Positions 12,070-19,627 of a DNA stretch of 43,355 bases are shown piece after piece (positions within the stretch are counted from its first letter, which is position 1; every line of letters starts with the position of its first letter). The notes under the pieces were generated by a model, which saw only the letters and a list, made by a program, of their open reading frames with translations, did not search any database and had not been told where the DNA came from. Source of the DNA: an uncultured Cocleimonas sp. (GTDB lineage: Bacteria; Pseudomonadota; Gammaproteobacteria; Thiotrichales; Thiotrichaceae); the NCBI GenBank assembly GCA_937929875.1, contig CALFUP010000161.1, positions 1-43,355 on the forward strand, written 5' to 3'. The position numbers and the translations under genes are program-made.

Positions 12070-13074
12070 GTGAGCAATAAAAACAACGGTAACACGCTAA
12101 ATCACAACTACCCAATCGAACAAGCTTTTAAATTTCCGTTAATTATTACCGCAATATTAGTTTTGTTACCTGGATTAGCACTCTACTGGTTTATTGGAGA
12201 TGCTCAAAGTACCCCACGAAGCCTTAAACTCTTTGTAGGCAACTGGATTTCACCCATAATATTATGGTTTTTTTGTGCCAGCTTTTTCCACTTATGGCTC
12301 AAACGTTCACAATTAAAAAAAGAAATCGATGCTAGCGAATTGCTTTCAAATAAATTAATTCCAAACATGTTTCATGGAGGTATCGACCAATATACTGAAA
12401 ACGAGCTAGAAGCTGAACTACAAACCACTAACTCTCAAAATAACATATCAAAAGAAAACCTTTTACACTCAAGATTATCGTTATTTCTAAATCATGCCGA
12501 CAATGACATTGACGAAACATTCGCAATTAAAGAACGTGAATACATGAAAGGCTCCTTTTCATTATCACGCTTTATGGTTTGGGCAATACCAATCATGGGA
12601 TTCATTGGAACTGTTTGGGGGATTAGTAATGGTATCTCACATTTCTCTGATGCGATGACGAGTACTAACTCTGTCACTGATGTATCGGCAATGCTTAAAG
12701 AAAGTTTACCTTTGGTGACCAGCTCATTAGCGACTGCATTTGATACCACCTTACTGGCTTTATTACTCAGTATTCCATTAATGATGCTAATGCTTTCTTT
12801 AGAGAAGGATGAAGAAGCTTATTTAATTGATCTTGACGAGAAATGGTTTCATGACATTAAACCTTTATTGGTAAAAAGCACACAGCAAAGCCTTTCACAA
12901 AATACGATCCAATCGGCTGAAGGCATTGTCGCTGTTGCAGATAACTCACAAGCCGTAGCCAACGAAATCACTTTACTGAGTACTCAAATCAAAGCGCTTC
13001 AAGAAACTATGGAAGATCTATACGAAACGGTTTTCACTTCCAAACTAAATGAGCGTTCAAATAAAAAGCCCTAA
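12070..13074 (+). CDS. MotA/TolQ/ExbB-like proton-channel subunit
   Basis: The product resembles the channel (A) subunit of 5:2-type ion-driven motors. Four membrane helices are predicted: about 22-41, 58-76, 168-186 and 214-242, with a cytoplasmic loop of about 90 residues between the second and third as in TolQ/ExbB/MotA. The third helix carries GFIGTVWGISNGI, close to the family G-x-x-GTVWG pattern. The fourth carries TSSLATAFDTTLLALLLSIP, matching the Thr/Ala-rich pore helix of TolQ/ExbB. The C-terminus (about 290-330) is likely helical. It begins with GTG preceded by GGAG. It is the first gene of a five-gene operon with two TolR-like partners, which supports the family call. The process it drives is unknown. 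Confidence 0.82.
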   Translation: MSNKNNGNTLNHNYPIEQAFKFPLIITAILVLLPGLALYWFIGDAQSTPRSLKLFVGNWISPIILWFFCASFFHLWLKRSQLKKEIDASELLSNKLIPNMFHGGIDQYTENELEAELQTTNSQNNISKENLLHSRLSLFLNHADNDIDETFAIKEREYMKGSFSLSRFMVWAIPIMGFIGTVWGISNGISHFSDAMTSTNSVTDVSAMLKESLPLVTSSLATAFDTTLLALLLSIPLMMLMLSLEKDEEAYLIDLDEKWFHDIKPLLVKSTQQSLSQNTIQSAEGIVAVADNSQAVANEITLLSTQIKALQETMEDLYETVFTSKLNERSNKKP

Positions 13075-13150: not shown

Positions 13151-13789
13151 ATGGCTATGTCTCGCGCCACGCGTTACGCACGCTATAATCAAGGAGAAAA
13201 ACTTGAGATTAGTTTATTTCCGTTTCTTAGTATTTTCCTATGCGTCATGGGGGTATTGTCTTTTATCAATGTTTTGAATAGCTTTAGTACACCGCAGAAA
13301 ATTGAATTAACGGCTCAGTTAGAACAAGGCTACAAAGTTGCTTATCAAATTTTTAGTTTGCCCGATGGTATTATCAGCGTTCCTCCTACGAAACACCTTC
13401 TTAAACTAAAAACTGAAGTAGACGAAAGTGATGCATTAGTCATTGAAGATATTTTAGATAGGCGTTCTCAATCAATGCAACGCTTAGAATCACACCAAGG
13501 CTCTGTCATGAACCTCGCGTTACAACCTGATATGGACTCTATTTTAGAAACCATGTTAGACATTCGAACCCTCAATGAAATTGCCTTAAAAGCAAACTAT
13601 CTTTACGAGGAGTTTTTGTTATTTGGAATTTATCCAAATGGTGGTTCTGCCTATCAAAAAATTCGCGATATTATGAGCTTTACCCCAGACGCAACCTCTA
13701 TCAGTGTTGGTCTTGAGCCTTTAGACAGCAACTGGACCTTAAACCTAAATCCAAATTTAGGTCCCAATAAAGATGGAACTGTTGAATAG
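13151..13789 (+). CDS. TolR/ExbD-like single-span protein with Ser in place of the channel Asp
   Basis: A 212-residue bitopic protein. After a basic N-terminus comes a membrane segment (about 20-42) reading LEISLFPFLSIFLCVMGVL. This aligns by eye with the TolR/ExbD pattern (E-I-x-x-x-P-x-L-D-V), but Ser27 stands where the proton-carrying Asp would be. The rest (about 45-212) is predicted periplasmic, with no OmpA-like peptidoglycan-binding motif. The family is not one I can name. It follows the channel gene by 76 bases and precedes the next ORF by 5 bases. ATG at 13151 or 13157 could be the start; a GGAG at 13133-13136 is a little far from either. I infer a B-type stator subunit working with the 13795 product. 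Confidence 0.6.
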   Translation: MAMSRATRYARYNQGEKLEISLFPFLSIFLCVMGVLSFINVLNSFSTPQKIELTAQLEQGYKVAYQIFSLPDGIISVPPTKHLLKLKTEVDESDALVIEDILDRRSQSMQRLESHQGSVMNLALQPDMDSILETMLDIRTLNEIALKANYLYEEFLLFGIYPNGGSAYQKIRDIMSFTPDATSISVGLEPLDSNWTLNLNPNLGPNKDGTVE

Positions 13790-13794
13790 CTATC

Positions 13795-14424
13795 ATGAAG
13801 AATTTAATCAGCCTAGATTCTCTAACCGACATTGTCTCTAATTCAGTGGGAATTTTGATCATTTTTGCTGTAATAAATCTCATCCATGATAATAACAAAA
13901 CCTATCAATTAGAAATTCCAATCGAGCATCGCACTGAACTTAGCCCTGCATTTTTCATGATAAAGAATGATAGTATTTTAGAAATGGATACTGATGTGCT
14001 GTTCTCTAATGCCACGGTTCAAGCAACAAGCGGAGCAGCTATTAATGAACGCTTATTTACTTTAGATTATTTTGACGTACTCGGTAAAATTGATGAAGGT
14101 AAAGGTGTTTCTTTTTTCGCCAGAGATACTGCTACATGGCCTAAGTTTCAGGAATTAGGCAAGGGCAACTCAAAATTAACTACAGCTTTGAATAAACTCG
14201 ATGCAAATAAGCAATTTGCCTTCTTTTTTGTCTATGATAGTAATGACGGTGAGGCTTCGGGTAATGGCTTTGAAGCTTTTCGTGAAGCACGCGAATACCT
14301 AAAAACACGCCGAATTAAAACTGGATGGCGACCAGTAAATGACGAAGCTCCTGCAAACATTTGCCAAGACCATTTTGGTAAACGTTGTGATTTTCTCCCT
14401 TCTTATTTAGGGGATATTCGATGA
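13795..14424 (+). CDS. Second TolR/ExbD-like single-span protein, channel Asp retained
   Basis: A 209-residue bitopic protein with a very short cytoplasmic N-terminus. Its membrane helix (about 13-31) is preceded by SLDSLTDIVSNSVGILIIF. Asp12 falls at the position of the essential TolR/ExbD/MotB Asp, with another acidic residue at Asp8. The periplasmic part ends with a helical run FEAFREAREYLKTRRIKTGW and two Cys near the C-terminus (ICQDHFGKRC). It lies 5 bases after the Ser-bearing partner and overlaps the following TPR gene by 4 bases (ATGA). The two proteins are similar in size and topology but clearly diverged in sequence. I infer a heteromeric B-subunit pair. No named family recognised. 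Confidence 0.6.
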   Translation: MKNLISLDSLTDIVSNSVGILIIFAVINLIHDNNKTYQLEIPIEHRTELSPAFFMIKNDSILEMDTDVLFSNATVQATSGAAINERLFTLDYFDVLGKIDEGKGVSFFARDTATWPKFQELGKGNSKLTTALNKLDANKQFAFFFVYDSNDGEASGNGFEAFREAREYLKTRRIKTGWRPVNDEAPANICQDHFGKRCDFLPSYLGDIR

Positions 14425-16031
14425 GTAAGAAGCTACCCTTTATTCAACTCAAAAAAGCTTGGGGTTTAGACGAAAATACCTCAATCGAAACGCTTTTAAT
14501 CGAAGCTCAGAAAAGAATAAAAGCTGACCCTAAAAATCCAGAGCTTAGCTTCAATACCGCTGAAATATTACGTCATTTAGACCGCAACAAAGAAGCTGCC
14601 CAACGCTATAAAGAAGCGGTAAGAAAAACTGATGCTAAAACCGAAGCTCGCTCAATTGAGTTACACCAAAGAGTAAAAAAACAACGAAAAGAGACTCGAA
14701 ATAAATTTTTGCTGATTACTTTTGCACCATTAGCCATTGCATTCTTTTTAGGTTTATTTACGTGGCAAAAACTCACCGAACCAGAGAAATTACCCGCTGA
14801 TAGCGATCCTGAAAAATTTGCCTTTACCCAATGGTTAGCCAAACAGCAAATGGCAGAAGTAATGACCACTTTGCAACAACAGAATCCTGAATTGAGTTTT
14901 GACTTCAGTTCGTCATCAGCCAGTGCTCAGTCACCTATGGAATTTATGCAGTCTTTAATGCAAACAGACGCCATCGAAAAAATGCGCCGTGATAATCAAA
15001 ATACTAAAAACTCTCAAAGTGAAGAAGGCGCAGGTCGACCTGCATTTCAATGTACTAAAGAACCTGCAGTAATGTGTGCAGCCAAAGATATTCCCAATGC
15101 ACCTGGTGATTCTCGAGAAGAAGTTGTTTTATTAATGGAAGCCTATGATTCTATTTTAAACAGCGAAAAAGACTGTACCAAAATAGAACAATCCATTGAG
15201 AGCATAGGCGAACAACTACAATGGAGAAAGTCTGAACGTCGAATTAAGGCTAACCTAGAAGATTTAGCAGTCGAATGCTATTACCGTCAAAAAAACCTCG
15301 AAAAAACGGTCGAGCATGCACGTAAATTGCAATGTACCGGGGATGAAAGTTACATCAACAGTGTCTACTGGTATTTGACCTCCATTAATCATCGTGTCGG
15401 TGACAAAACAAAAGCACTCAGTTCTTATCAATGTTTTCAAGAGGCAACTGACTACATTACTCAACATGACTTCAGTCCCGCTTATGTGGCCTCAAGACAT
15501 CGCGAATCAGGTGCACTCGCTTGGTTGTATTTTGATGACCTAGAAGGCGCAACATCATCATTAATAAAAGGTAGAAAGATTTTAAAAGAGATACCAGAAA
15601 AATCTGCTGGAATGTTGCAAGTTATCTCCGAAATTAATTTGGATCTAATGGAAACTTACGTCACTGCTAATATTGACAGAGATACATTTGATGAGCTTTT
15701 AGAAGAGATAAATTCTAGCGGCTTACTCACTGACGGCTACAAACAGATAAAAGATACACTTGCTGCAATTTATCACATGCAAAACTCAAATAATGCTGAC
15801 GCACTCATACCATTAGCAAACATCAGTAGTCGTTTTAGCTTAATGCCGGAATTCATCTGTGGCTGGGATTGGAGCGGTTTTGATCGTGGCTTAGACGAAT
15901 CAATTACTAACGATAGTATTCGTGAACAAGCGAGAACATTGGTTAATGCTACAAACTGTTATATCCCTCAAACCATGCAAACACGTATTCAAAATGTAAA
16001 TAAAGTTGGGAAGTGGTTAAAGTCACAATGA
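14421..16031 (+). CDS. Membrane-anchored TPR protein with Cys-rich periplasmic part
   Basis: A 536-residue protein. Residues about 25-75 look like a tetratricopeptide pair (PKNPELSFNTAEILRHLDRN...EAAQRYKEAV) on the cytoplasmic side. A membrane helix follows (96-115), then a Gln/Ser-rich linker and a long helical C-terminal region (about 200-530) suggestive of further TPR/SEL-like repeats. All eight cysteines lie after the membrane helix and none before it, as expected for disulfides in the periplasm. It is translationally coupled to the second TolR-like gene by a 4-base overlap, so it likely belongs to the same complex, perhaps as a scaffold spanning both faces of the membrane. No enzymatic motif found. 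Confidence 0.6.
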   Translation: MSKKLPFIQLKKAWGLDENTSIETLLIEAQKRIKADPKNPELSFNTAEILRHLDRNKEAAQRYKEAVRKTDAKTEARSIELHQRVKKQRKETRNKFLLITFAPLAIAFFLGLFTWQKLTEPEKLPADSDPEKFAFTQWLAKQQMAEVMTTLQQQNPELSFDFSSSSASAQSPMEFMQSLMQTDAIEKMRRDNQNTKNSQSEEGAGRPAFQCTKEPAVMCAAKDIPNAPGDSREEVVLLMEAYDSILNSEKDCTKIEQSIESIGEQLQWRKSERRIKANLEDLAVECYYRQKNLEKTVEHARKLQCTGDESYINSVYWYLTSINHRVGDKTKALSSYQCFQEATDYITQHDFSPAYVASRHRESGALAWLYFDDLEGATSSLIKGRKILKEIPEKSAGMLQVISEINLDLMETYVTANIDRDTFDELLEEINSSGLLTDGYKQIKDTLAAIYHMQNSNNADALIPLANISSRFSLMPEFICGWDWSGFDRGLDESITNDSIREQARTLVNATNCYIPQTMQTRIQNVNKVGKWLKSQ

Positions 16032-16080
16032 TAAGTCTCATAAACACTTTAATATACAGGTTGATTAAAACACGAACCTC

Positions 16081-16099
16081 CAAAAAGTGGGGGGGTGTC
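16081..16099 (+). repeat. Dispersed 19-bp repeat, copy C
   Basis: An exact consensus match with R=G. It lies in the 183-base gap between the TPR gene and the peptidase-like gene. GTCATTTTATT (16097-16107) can pair imperfectly, 9 of 11 positions, with AATACAAAGAC (16126-16136). Confidence 0.85.
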
Positions 16100-16139
16100 A
16101 TTTTATTCCTCTCAAAGCGAAGCCCAATACAAAGACCTC

Positions 16140-16158
16140 TAAAAAGTGGGGGGGTGTC
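16140..16158 (+). repeat. Dispersed 19-bp repeat, copy D
   Basis: Differs from the consensus only at the first base (T for C). It is a direct repeat of copy C, 59 bases downstream, with ACCTC shared just upstream of both. GTGTCTTTAT can pair with ATAAAACAC about 25 bases further on, with one bulge. Confidence 0.85.
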
Positions 16159-16214
16159 TTTATATAGCTTAAAACGGTTAATAAAACACAATCTAAACCA
16201 AGCCGAGGTAATCT

Positions 16215-18080
16215 GTGTTAAATAAAATTATCCTAGCTGCAATTAATCGGGCAAATACTTCAAAGCCCGATGCGATGCAAGCTGATGCTTTCGAAAACCC
16301 AACAAGCTACACAGGATATATTTATCCGCTTCGATATTTACTAGCACTTCGTTACTTAAAAACAAAACAAAAGACCTTGGCGCACTTTCGTTACAAAAAA
16401 GAATATCCGATAGCAGCGAATGATTTCACAAATGCGTTAATTGAACGTTTATCAAACAAACAGTCATCAAATCAAATCAAACACAACGCTGAATTAACTA
16501 AGCCTAATTTCCCTTGGTTGGGCAATGTGTTTACGGCAAAAATTATCTATCCTCTACTTTTTGTTTCATTGGCTGGCGTTTTATTTAGCGTTAACCAATG
16601 GCATCAACAGAAAAAAATAGAAAGTGTATTGGCTAATTACTTGCCTTATTTTTCAGACTTATTACATCGTAAACTTCTGTTAAAACACAATGATGCAAAT
16701 ACTAATTTAGTGGAAGCTACTGAGTTATCAATCAATAAAACAGAAAATAAAATCCTAAGCGAGCTTCCGGAAAAAAATGGTGTGAGAGACATCATGCAAG
16801 CACAATTAACAAAACTGAAAGACCCAAATACCGATAGCGAAAGCATCATGTTTGGCTTTAAAGAAGTAAATACGCTCTTTGACAAAGAACAGCAACCTTA
16901 TTACTTGTCGCCAAAGTCGTTTACTATGCCATGCTCATCTTTGATTGATGCACCCGTTGAGCAAATGATGATGCTCAAAGAACTCGAATCTTTAATGAGC
17001 AATAACAATCCAGAATTGTGCCGCACTACCATGATGACGACTTACAAGGTTGATGATCGAACTCAGCTTTTTTATAAGGATAAACATGTCACAAAAAGTA
17101 ATGAGGTAGAACTGCCGTTATTTCATGTGCGACGAATCGATAAAGTACCTGCAGTAGATGGAGCACTTGGCTTAACTTTTAAAGAAAGAGGCATCGGTTC
17201 GATTATTCTTGTGGATAGAATTAAAAACTTTGCAAGAGAGTCGATCTTACCCGCCCTCACCTTTCAAGGCAGAAATTATATCATTCCCTATTGGATGCAA
17301 GGTCATTATGAAATAGAAGAAGCCGTAACCAAAGGCTATAAAAAAGACATTAACCAGATTTACCCTGATAAAACGGAACAAAAAAAAGTAAAAACCTTAG
17401 TTAAGCAGTTGATCAAAGATAAAAACCGCATGCAAAATTCTAAAATGGAACAGACCATGCAACGCACCAACAGTAATAACGATCAAAACATTTTTGGTAA
17501 TGGCTTCGATGCGATTAGTGTTTTATTAGGGAATAGTAAAAAAGATAAAGGCAATATTAAAGAGTTTGTAAGACCCCTATTTGATGAAGCTGATTCACAA
17601 ACTCTAAAAAAACTGGATGAGGCTTTGTACCCCAGTATTGAATACCATGAGGCTTATCATCAAATTGATAAAAAAGATTGGCTTCCGCCCAATTGGTTAA
17701 CATCAGTTTTTAAAGGAAAACTAGATGAAAATGCCACCGAGCATACTTTAGAAGAGCTTGGTGCTTACTTATCTCAATTAGCAAATACCGAGCAAGGCCA
17801 GAATATATGGCTAAGTAAATTATTAATATTTTCATTAAACCCAATGACAAAAGGACAAGCAGAATATTACGCTTCCAGTATTATCTTTAATGCGATGGAA
17901 GCACTACATTTAGAAGAAGCGATCGAAGCAAATTATATTGCAACAGTTGACGACAAAACTCGTATTTTTAAAGCATTACTCAGCAAAGACAGCGATGAAA
18001 TAAGCAGAATGGCTCGTCAAGCCTATCAAATATTGTTCCAGAGAGATGTACCAAACTTAGCAAACCATTCTCTTAACTAA
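16215..18080 (+). CDS. Membrane-anchored protein with HEAYH zinc-peptidase motif
   Basis: A 621-residue protein I cannot assign to a named family. Residues 1-105 are predicted cytoplasmic, a membrane helix spans about 109-127, and about 490 residues follow on the periplasmic side. HEAYH (His478, Glu479, His482) matches the HExxH zinc-metallopeptidase signature. Glu513/Glu514, in TLEELGAYLSQL 31-32 residues later, could supply the third ligand as in gluzincins. Two Cys near 238 and 276 could form a disulfide. The start is a GTG at 16215 with GAGGT upstream. It shares strand and theme with the four preceding genes, although 183 bases with two repeats intervene. Peptidase activity is an inference from one motif. 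Confidence 0.6.
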   Translation: MLNKIILAAINRANTSKPDAMQADAFENPTSYTGYIYPLRYLLALRYLKTKQKTLAHFRYKKEYPIAANDFTNALIERLSNKQSSNQIKHNAELTKPNFPWLGNVFTAKIIYPLLFVSLAGVLFSVNQWHQQKKIESVLANYLPYFSDLLHRKLLLKHNDANTNLVEATELSINKTENKILSELPEKNGVRDIMQAQLTKLKDPNTDSESIMFGFKEVNTLFDKEQQPYYLSPKSFTMPCSSLIDAPVEQMMMLKELESLMSNNNPELCRTTMMTTYKVDDRTQLFYKDKHVTKSNEVELPLFHVRRIDKVPAVDGALGLTFKERGIGSIILVDRIKNFARESILPALTFQGRNYIIPYWMQGHYEIEEAVTKGYKKDINQIYPDKTEQKKVKTLVKQLIKDKNRMQNSKMEQTMQRTNSNNDQNIFGNGFDAISVLLGNSKKDKGNIKEFVRPLFDEADSQTLKKLDEALYPSIEYHEAYHQIDKKDWLPPNWLTSVFKGKLDENATEHTLEELGAYLSQLANTEQGQNIWLSKLLIFSLNPMTKGQAEYYASSIIFNAMEALHLEEAIEANYIATVDDKTRIFKALLSKDSDEISRMARQAYQILFQRDVPNLANHSLN

Positions 18081-18256: not shown

Positions 18257-19627
18257 ATGATCGAAAGCCGCTATAAAATTGAATACGTCTTCCCTAATGA
18301 AGACCAAGCTAAAAAGAAAGCCTCTCCGTTCAGAGTATTATGGTATTTACTCCTTATCCCGCTCATAGGAATGGTTGTAGCAGCTATTACTTATGATTTT
18401 TCTTTCAAAGACTTATCTCGTGATTCACTTGTATTAATTGAAAAAGCCAAGGTGCAGGTTTTCAATCTTGGAGAGCAAAAAGTATCTATAGATTTAAAGG
18501 AAACAGCTGAGAAACAGGCAATAGCACCCATAGAAAAACCAATTTCAAAAGTTGCAGAAGAAAAAACAGCTCCAATTATTGCCGTTGCTCCCATAGAAAA
18601 AATAGAACGATATAAATCAAAAATCTCTCAATTAAGTTCTCAACAAGAAGCGCAACTAAAATCCATCCAAGAACAAATTGAAAAAAATTCAGCATTTTCA
18701 AAAAAACTTAATTCAATATCGGAACAGTTAGTTCTTGAACAAATAAAAAATCAGCAGTTGAACTCTTTGGTCACAGAACAAGAAAAAGACAGATTAGAGT
18801 TAGAAGAACAATACAATAAGGCTCTAGAAAAGACTGATATTGCCTCGATTCAAAGTACTAATAAAGCCTCAAAAAATCAGATATCTACTAAAGAAACTAT
18901 AGAACAAGTGCCTACTGAGGTTAACAAGGAAGAGATTAACGTAACTAAAGTTCAGGAGAATGAAGATGCTGTTCTAGTAACGACAAAAGAAATTACTCAG
19001 ACAGCAGAGATAGTAGATCAAAGCGAGAAATCTGAAACTGATAAAATCATCGAAGCTATGACTACAATAGCTAAAGATACCACTAGTGAAACAGAAAAAA
19101 ACGTATCGACAGTTAATAAAACTAGTGAAAAGTTAGATACACAATCAAAAAACAAAGAAATTGCTAACCCAAAAAAAGAAGAAGCTAATAATAATGTTAC
19201 CGAACTAGTGAAAGTAAAAGAAATCATTAAAACTCCCAAAACTGAAGAAGTAACGGAGTTATCTGAAACGGATAAAATTATTAAAGCAATGAGCACGACC
19301 ACAAAAGTTAACACTAGCGAGAAACTCGCCGAAGTTGATAAAACCAAGTCTAAAACAACAGAGCTTAAATCAAGCATTAATTCAATTACTGACAATGAAG
19401 ACACCGATGTCAGCTCAACTGAATATGCAACAAAAGTGACTGAAACTAACACTACCGAGATAAGCAATACTTCTAAAAATGATATTGCAGAATCAGAGAA
19501 AGTTATAAAAACAACAGAAGCTGAAAAAAAAGAAGTATCTTCAGTGGATGCGATTATAGCTGCTATGCAGGAAACTAAAACAACGAGTAGTTCGGATGAT
19601 CAGAGTAAGACTGTCGATTCAAAATAA
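18257..19627 (+). CDS. Membrane-anchored coiled-coil protein with three short C-terminal repeats
   Basis: A 456-residue protein of unknown function. One membrane helix lies at about 27-45 with a basic cytoplasmic side before it. A coiled coil (about 115-185, Gln/Glu/Lys/Leu-rich) follows, then a long Lys/Glu/Thr/Ser-rich, probably disordered tail. A short motif of the form S-x-x-D-x-I-I-x-A-M occurs three times, at about residues 259, 336 and 429 (SETDKIIEAMT, SETDKIIKAMS, SSVDAIIAAMQ), the last close to the C-terminus. No good ribosome-binding site precedes the ATG, which sits in very AT-rich sequence. It follows the motor-like operon on the same strand and converges on ccmI. Membership in the motor-like system is possible but unproven. 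Confidence 0.55.
   Translation: MIESRYKIEYVFPNEDQAKKKASPFRVLWYLLLIPLIGMVVAAITYDFSFKDLSRDSLVLIEKAKVQVFNLGEQKVSIDLKETAEKQAIAPIEKPISKVAEEKTAPIIAVAPIEKIERYKSKISQLSSQQEAQLKSIQEQIEKNSAFSKKLNSISEQLVLEQIKNQQLNSLVTEQEKDRLELEEQYNKALEKTDIASIQSTNKASKNQISTKETIEQVPTEVNKEEINVTKVQENEDAVLVTTKEITQTAEIVDQSEKSETDKIIEAMTTIAKDTTSETEKNVSTVNKTSEKLDTQSKNKEIANPKKEEANNNVTELVKVKEIIKTPKTEEVTELSETDKIIKAMSTTTKVNTSEKLAEVDKTKSKTTELKSSINSITDNEDTDVSSTEYATKVTETNTTEISNTSKNDIAESEKVIKTTEAEKKEVSSVDAIIAAMQETKTTSSSDDQSKTVDSK

Follow-up and report, generated by a model that had tools for sequence, protein, structure and literature searches.

Two unlike ExbD/TolR-like subunits with a fixed Ser/Asp split at the predicted ion site: a candidate asymmetric motor in Thiotrichaceae-type bacteria and two cyanobacteria

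Introduction

Models of 5:2 ion-driven motors assume two equal ion sites, used in turn, and ten ions per revolution. A locus found in an uncultured Cocleimonas sp. (GenBank assembly GCA_937929875.1, contig CALFUP010000161.1; the 43,355-nucleotide stretch analyzed here is referred to as the window) raises the question of whether one such site is enough, and of what the role of the second may be. The locus encodes a MotA/TolQ/ExbB-type protein (A) with conserved pore threonines, followed by two paralogous small membrane proteins (B1 and B2), the first of which has a fixed serine, and the second a fixed aspartate, at the ion-site position. A lineage with one site fixed as Ser is a natural case of this question, and also bears on whether asymmetry sets direction or gating. 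Moreover, the halves of an axle encoded by two genes can be tagged and mutated separately, which is impossible with a homodimer.

Genetic organization of the locus

Reading of the ORFs between positions 12070 and 19627 of the window revealed six genes, all on the + strand. Their features are as follows.

12070..13074, + strand: A, MotA/TolQ/ExbB-type channel protein, 334 aa, GTG start (PF01618)
12610..12612, + strand: codon of A Thr181, matching the first pore Thr in ExbB/TolQ (alignment)
12748..12750, + strand: codon of A Thr227, matching the second pore Thr in ExbB/TolQ (alignment)
13151..13789, + strand: B1, ExbD/TolR-like subunit with Ser at the ion site, 212 aa (paralogy to B2)
13208..13276, + strand: B1 membrane helix, residues 20-42 (hydropathy; near-invariant)
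13229..13231, + strand: B1 Ser27 codon AGT, putative silent site (Ser in 28/28 loci)
13795..14424, + strand: B2, ExbD/TolR-like subunit with Asp at the ion site, 209 aa (ORF, homologues)
13828..13890, + strand: B2 membrane helix, residues 12-32 (hydropathy; AF2 helix 7-35, low confidence)
13828..13830, + strand: B2 Asp12 codon GAC, predicted ion site (Asp in 27/27 loci)
14421..16031, + strand: TPR-like protein whose ORF overlaps the end of B2; one membrane helix; accessory at the genus level (follows B2 in 10 loci, each from group g1 or g2)
16215..18080, + strand: HEAYH protein, 621 aa, with a metallopeptidase-like motif and a membrane helix; genus-level accessory (HEAYH in 9/9 homologues)
18257..19627, + strand: low-complexity protein having a single N-terminal membrane helix; perhaps the last gene of the set, with weak conservation (ORF, locus comparison)

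The B1 and B2 ORFs are both intact and, as the initial annotation had it, adjacent, with 5 bases between them; the equal dosage that it derived from this gap is plausible. According to hydropathy and AF2 models, each of the two proteins, encoded beside A, has one N-terminal membrane helix followed by a domain that is probably periplasmic.

The A subunit

The A protein matches PF01618 with 31.5 bits (curated cut-off 22.9). Its Thr181 and Thr227, which we take to be the counterparts of E. coli T148 and T181, respectively, are identical in 15/15 aligned A-type proteins, including a TolQ/ExbB of this genome. The E. coli pore threonines bear these two designations in the available text of PMC12905483. 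Thr181 was found in 28/28 operon copies (see below), as was Asp225, an extra acidic residue of A near the pore Thr, which could take part in ion transfer. A role for Asp225 as specific compensation for the lost Asp of B1 was considered and rejected: the residue also occurs beside Asp/Asp pairs (Sagittula, genome G794) and beside a single B protein with Asp (Rhizobium), and is therefore not peculiar to Ser/Asp systems.

A PDB profile search with A returned nothing at E 0.01, and a single-sequence search listed ExbB, ZorA and TolQ with E values of 0.02 to 0.63. Across the whole genome PF01618 is matched six times, strongly in three cases, and three ExbD (PF02472) matches lie elsewhere; since the genome has these other genes, A-B1-B2 is not its housekeeping TolQR. 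A PF01618 survey of A genes in 150 genomes, whose listing was confined to the strongest matches, was not used. Two more divergent MotA/ExbB-type genes were noticed on contigs C110 and C98 of the same genome (L019 and L021); a protein with the helix DPFIDLLFNSLLGFSFLFLVSLLF is encoded beside one, and a coiled-coil protein with a MotB-like helix beside the other.

Ion-site residues of B1 and B2

The initial annotation placed Ser27 of B1 at the proton-site position of TolR, within the motif E-I-x-x-x-P-x-L-S, and Asp12 of B2 at the equivalent place. Both assignments were borne out. The site reads E19-I-S-L-F-P24-F-L-S27-I in the B1 region (LEISLFPFLSIFLCVMGVLSFINVL) and D8-S-L-T-D12-I in the B2 region (DSLTDIVSNSVGILIIFAVINLI). 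ExbD/TolR proteins of the order's genomes contain the motif E-[IV]-x3-P-x-x-D (e.g. VEVNLTPLIDVVF) with spacing equal to that of B1, which assigns Ser27 to the ion site and makes Asp12 its counterpart. Indeed, profile-profile alignment superimposed FPFLSI of B1 on DSLTDI of B2 without gaps, with S27 on D12 (Prob 45, E 2e-4 with window-first rows). The hydrophobic stretch of B2 opens with Asp12, and Asp25 occupies the corresponding place in ExbD. Using the B1 profile with 398 genomes, a TolR-like ORF containing SEINIVPFLDV was matched in the same register (E 0.08, alone not significant). The B1 helix has no acidic residue, and no His is present in residues 18-42 of any of the 28 B1 sequences.

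Conservation in Thiotrichaceae-type genomes

A search of the genome collection with B2 identified 14 relatives, 13 of them in Cocleimonas, Leucothrix or Thiotrichaceae records and the fourteenth in an unclassified Proteobacteria MAG. The B1 profile revealed the gene in 27/63 genomes of the order (16/46 good genomes, 4/8 genera). With B2 profiles, only the window was recovered from 369 genomes of the class and 398 of the phylum; the B1 profile gave only weak scattered matches in 7 other genomes among the 398 (E 0.016 to 0.1). No further Ser/Asp sets were found in viral contigs.

The operon set comprised 28 copies from 27 Thiotrichaceae-type genomes, including the window; loci L001-L014 were left out of the counts, as they come from the same genomes as those in L062-L088. 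The alignment of homologues proposed in the initial annotation showed both residues to be fixed: Ser27 is present in 28/28 copies of B1 and Asp12 in 27/27 copies of B2, the remaining contig (L077) ending before B2 and the B2 of L062 being partial. The lowest identity to the window protein was 52% for B1 and 54% for B2. The helix regions are far more constant than the rest of the proteins, with 21/25 invariant columns versus 45/187 elsewhere in B1 (28 sequences), and 20/25 versus 39/184 in B2 (27 sequences); despite these near-invariant residues, the codons of both regions vary freely. Wherever both B genes could be seen (27/27 loci), B1 and B2 are kept together. Genome G005 has two A-B1-B2 sets on separate contigs (L072, L073), both of the Ser/Asp type.

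A-B1-B2 sets in cyanobacterial plasmids

A plasmid collection of 72,556 records was searched with A and B2 as queries. A was matched in two plasmids, pANACY.03 of Anabaena cylindrica and p1 of Microcystis aeruginosa NIES-2481, both of which also match B2; weak, short B2 matches in 18 other, mostly rhizobial, records were taken as chance. The 153-aa protein encoded between the cyanobacterial A and B2 genes was identified as B1 by pairwise comparison with window B1 (E 4e-14), and these were the only two A-B1-B2 sets found in the plasmid collection. Their proteins (B1 of Anabaena, TEIELFPFLSVLACTIGVL, and of Microcystis, IQIDLFPFLSILACTIGSL; the two B2 proteins, LDSFLDILTNTVGVL and LDSFLDIMTNTVGVL) share 21-31% identity with those of the window set. 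The cyanobacterial A had no match in phages.

The split recurs in the same gene order, with Ser in B1 and Asp in B2 in 2/2 sets each. Thus, the Asp of ExbD/TolR at the helix ion site is absent from every B1 and present in every B2 examined, and B1 homologues with Asp at this position, which the initial annotation had named as the finding that would speak against it, were encountered neither among the 28 loci nor in the two cyanobacterial copies. All 28 Thiotrichaceae-type copies encode this Ser with AGT or AGC, the two cyanobacteria with TCA or TCG. A change between these codon families needs two base changes, passing through Thr or Cys if made in single steps; because it separates the two groups, Ser has been kept or regained. 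The recurrence of the Ser/Asp pair in distant cyanobacteria suggests a natural motor with one working ion site.

Relationship of B1 and B2 to each other and to ExbD

B1 and B2 are paralogues, as judged by profile comparison. The alignment obtained with cyanobacterial-first rows (Prob 97.7, E 7e-12) had a score of 64.1, compared with 24.4 for the best shuffle, and 0/60 column shuffles reached the B1-B2 score. It spans the helix as well as the C-terminal part (FLSVLACTIGVL on FLDILTNTVGVL; RPDGIEVFKAIR on RPDSFATFRQAR). Thiotrichaceae-type B1 and B2 profiles lacking the cyanobacterial rows did not match each other (E 0.59).

The link of B1 and B2 to ExbD proper is weaker than this paralogy. PF02472 was matched neither by window B1 or B2 nor by 14 members of each family; Anabaena B1 scored 17.8 bits (E 0.0036), under the cut-off of 25.4. 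A narrow ExbD profile (hhalign) gave E values of 0.056 and 0.067, which are not significant, and 1 and 2 of 60 shuffles reached the respective scores. Searches with window B1 and B2 returned nothing meaningful from Pfam, NCBIfam and PADLOC (best E 0.07), with no VWA match to either protein in Pfam, and nothing useful from PHROGs and PDB sequences; PDB searches with cyanobacterial B1 found no relative.

Single-chain AF2 models of B1 and B2, whose helix regions are of low confidence, have an order of strands and helices which we take to fit that of ExbD. The B1 model, of low confidence, runs through two strands, a helix, the two inserted helices and a final strand-helix-strand. In fold comparison the B2 model matched ExbD 8pek (Z 4.5, rmsd 3.8, 88 aligned, rank 2) and 8vgd (Z 3.6, rmsd 2.7, 67 aligned), with unrelated rows scoring alike. 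The best row for the B1 model had Z 4.8, and no ExbD row was listed; this model is poor, so its comparison excludes nothing.

Comparison with known systems

The set resembles ExbBD/TolQR in having an A-type ring gene with both pore Thr residues, small one-helix B proteins and, in B1, the entry motif EIxxxPF[L/I]. It differs in the presence of two unlike B genes, in Ser replacing Asp in every B1, and in B proteins that lie below detection by the Pfam ExbD profile.

The statement of the initial annotation that the B subunits of known 5:2 motors are identical has to be withdrawn. AglRQS of Myxococcus xanthus likewise combines one MotA-type with two MotB/TolR-type proteins, and its AglQ and AglS are two different MotB homologues; however, according to the available text of PMC9389320, both retain Asp, where B1 has Ser. 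A genes followed by a pair of unlike tolR-like or TPH-vWA genes have also been published (PMC12204202, section 8). These resemble the present set in the order of a tolQ-like gene and two unlike B-type genes, with a TPR gene nearby in the PVC case, where both B genes are tolR-like, but each protein of the TPH-vWA pairs has an Asp and a vWA domain, unlike B1 and B2, which share one Asp between them. Since such pairs are already in print, the pairing of unlike B genes is not new. The fixed Ser/Asp asymmetry is new as far as searches of open-licence PMC papers show: the search listings, and likewise the available text of PMC12505986, contained no mention of a B pair with just one acidic residue. 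GldLM differs in arrangement, as it depends on acidic residues in GldL, its A-side protein (PMC8986121, available text).

Two other arrangements of an A gene with two B genes were found in the genomes and plasmids searched. One family group (f207), retrieved via the A profile, comprises 12 loci in which A is followed by two unlike B genes with FLD; Asp was counted in 12/12 first and 11/12 second B proteins, the stretch of L050 ending before the second gene, using a motif that itself contains Asp. The first B protein of the single f207 locus scanned has a VWA_2 match (7e-10), and these loci are therefore placed with the published TPH-vWA heterologous pairs. The other, seen in a Sagittula stellata plasmid (L154:4458-6436) and in genome G794, consists of A and two short B-like proteins with Asp at the helix start, as judged by eye. 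The Sagittula B proteins are annotated only as hypothetical and have no Pfam match.

Proposed mechanism and alternative explanations

It is proposed that A forms a ring around a central pair of one B1 and one B2, and that the complex is an ion-driven motor of the ExbBD/TolQR/MotAB kind. B2 would carry the ion on Asp12, and Ser27 of B1, standing in place of the second Asp, would be a permanently neutral site. In ExbBD/TolQR, one Asp touches Thr and the other faces the cytoplasmic cavity (PMC12905483, available text). In the published 5:2 model, every B site meets every A once in a turn, the number of ions used per turn is the product of the A and B counts, and a neutral site is able to pass at places where a charged one is not (PMC9389320, available text). 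Such a motor would be 5:2 in shape and 5:1 in ion sites. Since the Ser site would always be neutral and the count follows this product, about five ions would be used per turn, in ion-coupled steps of 72 degrees, compared with ten ions and 36 degrees in current models. The B1-B2 axle would have a fixed asymmetry, and its periplasmic domains would transmit movement to envelope partners that differ between clades.

An A5:B1:B2 motor in which B2 alone binds the ion, at about five ions per turn, is the reading that we moderately favour. The single B1-B2 heterodimer in one pore, the step size and the work in the envelope are inferred from sequence. The broader proposition is that members of two phyla have a kind of motor whose body is 5:2 but which has one ion site: B1 and B2 would pair obligatorily, Ser27 would be the fixed neutral site, each turn would use five ions, and the axle would be asymmetric. 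The chances of this seem evenly balanced.

Alternatively, the pore might be occupied by a B2 homodimer with two Asp residues, as in an ordinary 5:2 motor, while B1 stands outside the ring and passes force to the periplasm in the manner of TonB or TolA, which bind beside the ring (PMC12204202, section 8). The B1 helix without an acidic residue and the two-helix insertion in the model of its periplasmic domain would agree with this. However, B1 still has, where the ion site lies, an entry motif of the ExbD type (E-I-x3-P-F-L), it is a paralogue of B2, and the Ser is itself invariant; furthermore, the His-containing SHLS helix motif given for TonB/TolA in PMC12204202 is not seen in B1. We consider this arrangement rather improbable.

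Rather than a continuous motor, the complex might be an ion channel with a gate, or a sensor of the envelope, whose asymmetric pair responds to a signal by opening, as might be the case in a defence-type relative of Zorya. The A protein weakly matches ZorA profiles (window A, E 4e-7; cyanobacterial A, E 2e-8), and both cyanobacterial copies are located amid annotated defence genes (Cmr, CARF-HEPN and viperin; a SLATT effector, an N-6 methylase and an SNF2-type helicase), so that a defence use of these copies is possible. In contrast, the window copy has ileS and a PhyH-type gene on one flank and cytochrome c maturation genes on the opposite flank, 5/6 scanned window proteins have no PADLOC match, and the presence in 16/46 good genomes and 4/8 genera resembles a lineage trait more closely than an island gene. 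Zorya systems comprise ZorB plus further proteins; window B1 and B2 gave no ZorB match, and no other Zorya protein was detected among the six scanned, A alone having a weak match. A gated channel or sensor is a distinctly unlikely explanation.

It is very doubtful that A is shared by two complexes, active ones with B2 dimers and inactive ones with B1 dimers, B1 acting as a dominant-negative regulatory competitor: the adjacent B1 and B2 genes with one A gene would permit this, and the pairing of AglQ and AglS as homo- or heterodimers is also stated to be unsettled (PMC9389320, available text), but the B1 helix is as conserved as the B2 helix (21/25 versus 20/25 columns), the two genes occur together in 27/27 loci and 2/2 cyanobacterial sets, and a mere competitor would, in our judgement, be expected to be less constrained and more often lost.

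Clade-specific neighbours

For the A5:B1:B2 motor, the neighbouring genes suggest where it may work. The constant core is the A-B1-B2 order, and the flanking genes change by clade. In groups g1/g2, 10 loci have the TPR-like gene behind B2 and 9 encode the HEAYH protein; the two g1 loci without them (L062, L063) both end at or just after B2. The HEAYH protein of the window has no Pfam match; it may be a metallopeptidase anchored in the membrane and associated with the motor genes in a single group of genera. In the Leucothrix-type group g4 (L069-L071, L074-L077), a gene for an S13 D-Ala-D-Ala carboxypeptidase is located directly upstream of A in 7/7 loci, which hints at a link to the cell wall, and 9/9 loci of g3 have at least one of two small membrane coiled-coil genes downstream. 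Neighbours of these kinds (TPR-like, HEAYH, S13 carboxypeptidase and membrane coiled-coil genes) suggest work in the cell envelope.

Between the TPR-like and HEAYH genes of the window there is a 40-base direct repeat in two copies (16067-16106 and 16126-16165; 83% alike, 59 bases apart), which contain AAAAAGTGGGGGGGTGTC; each copy was flagged by a terminator scan.
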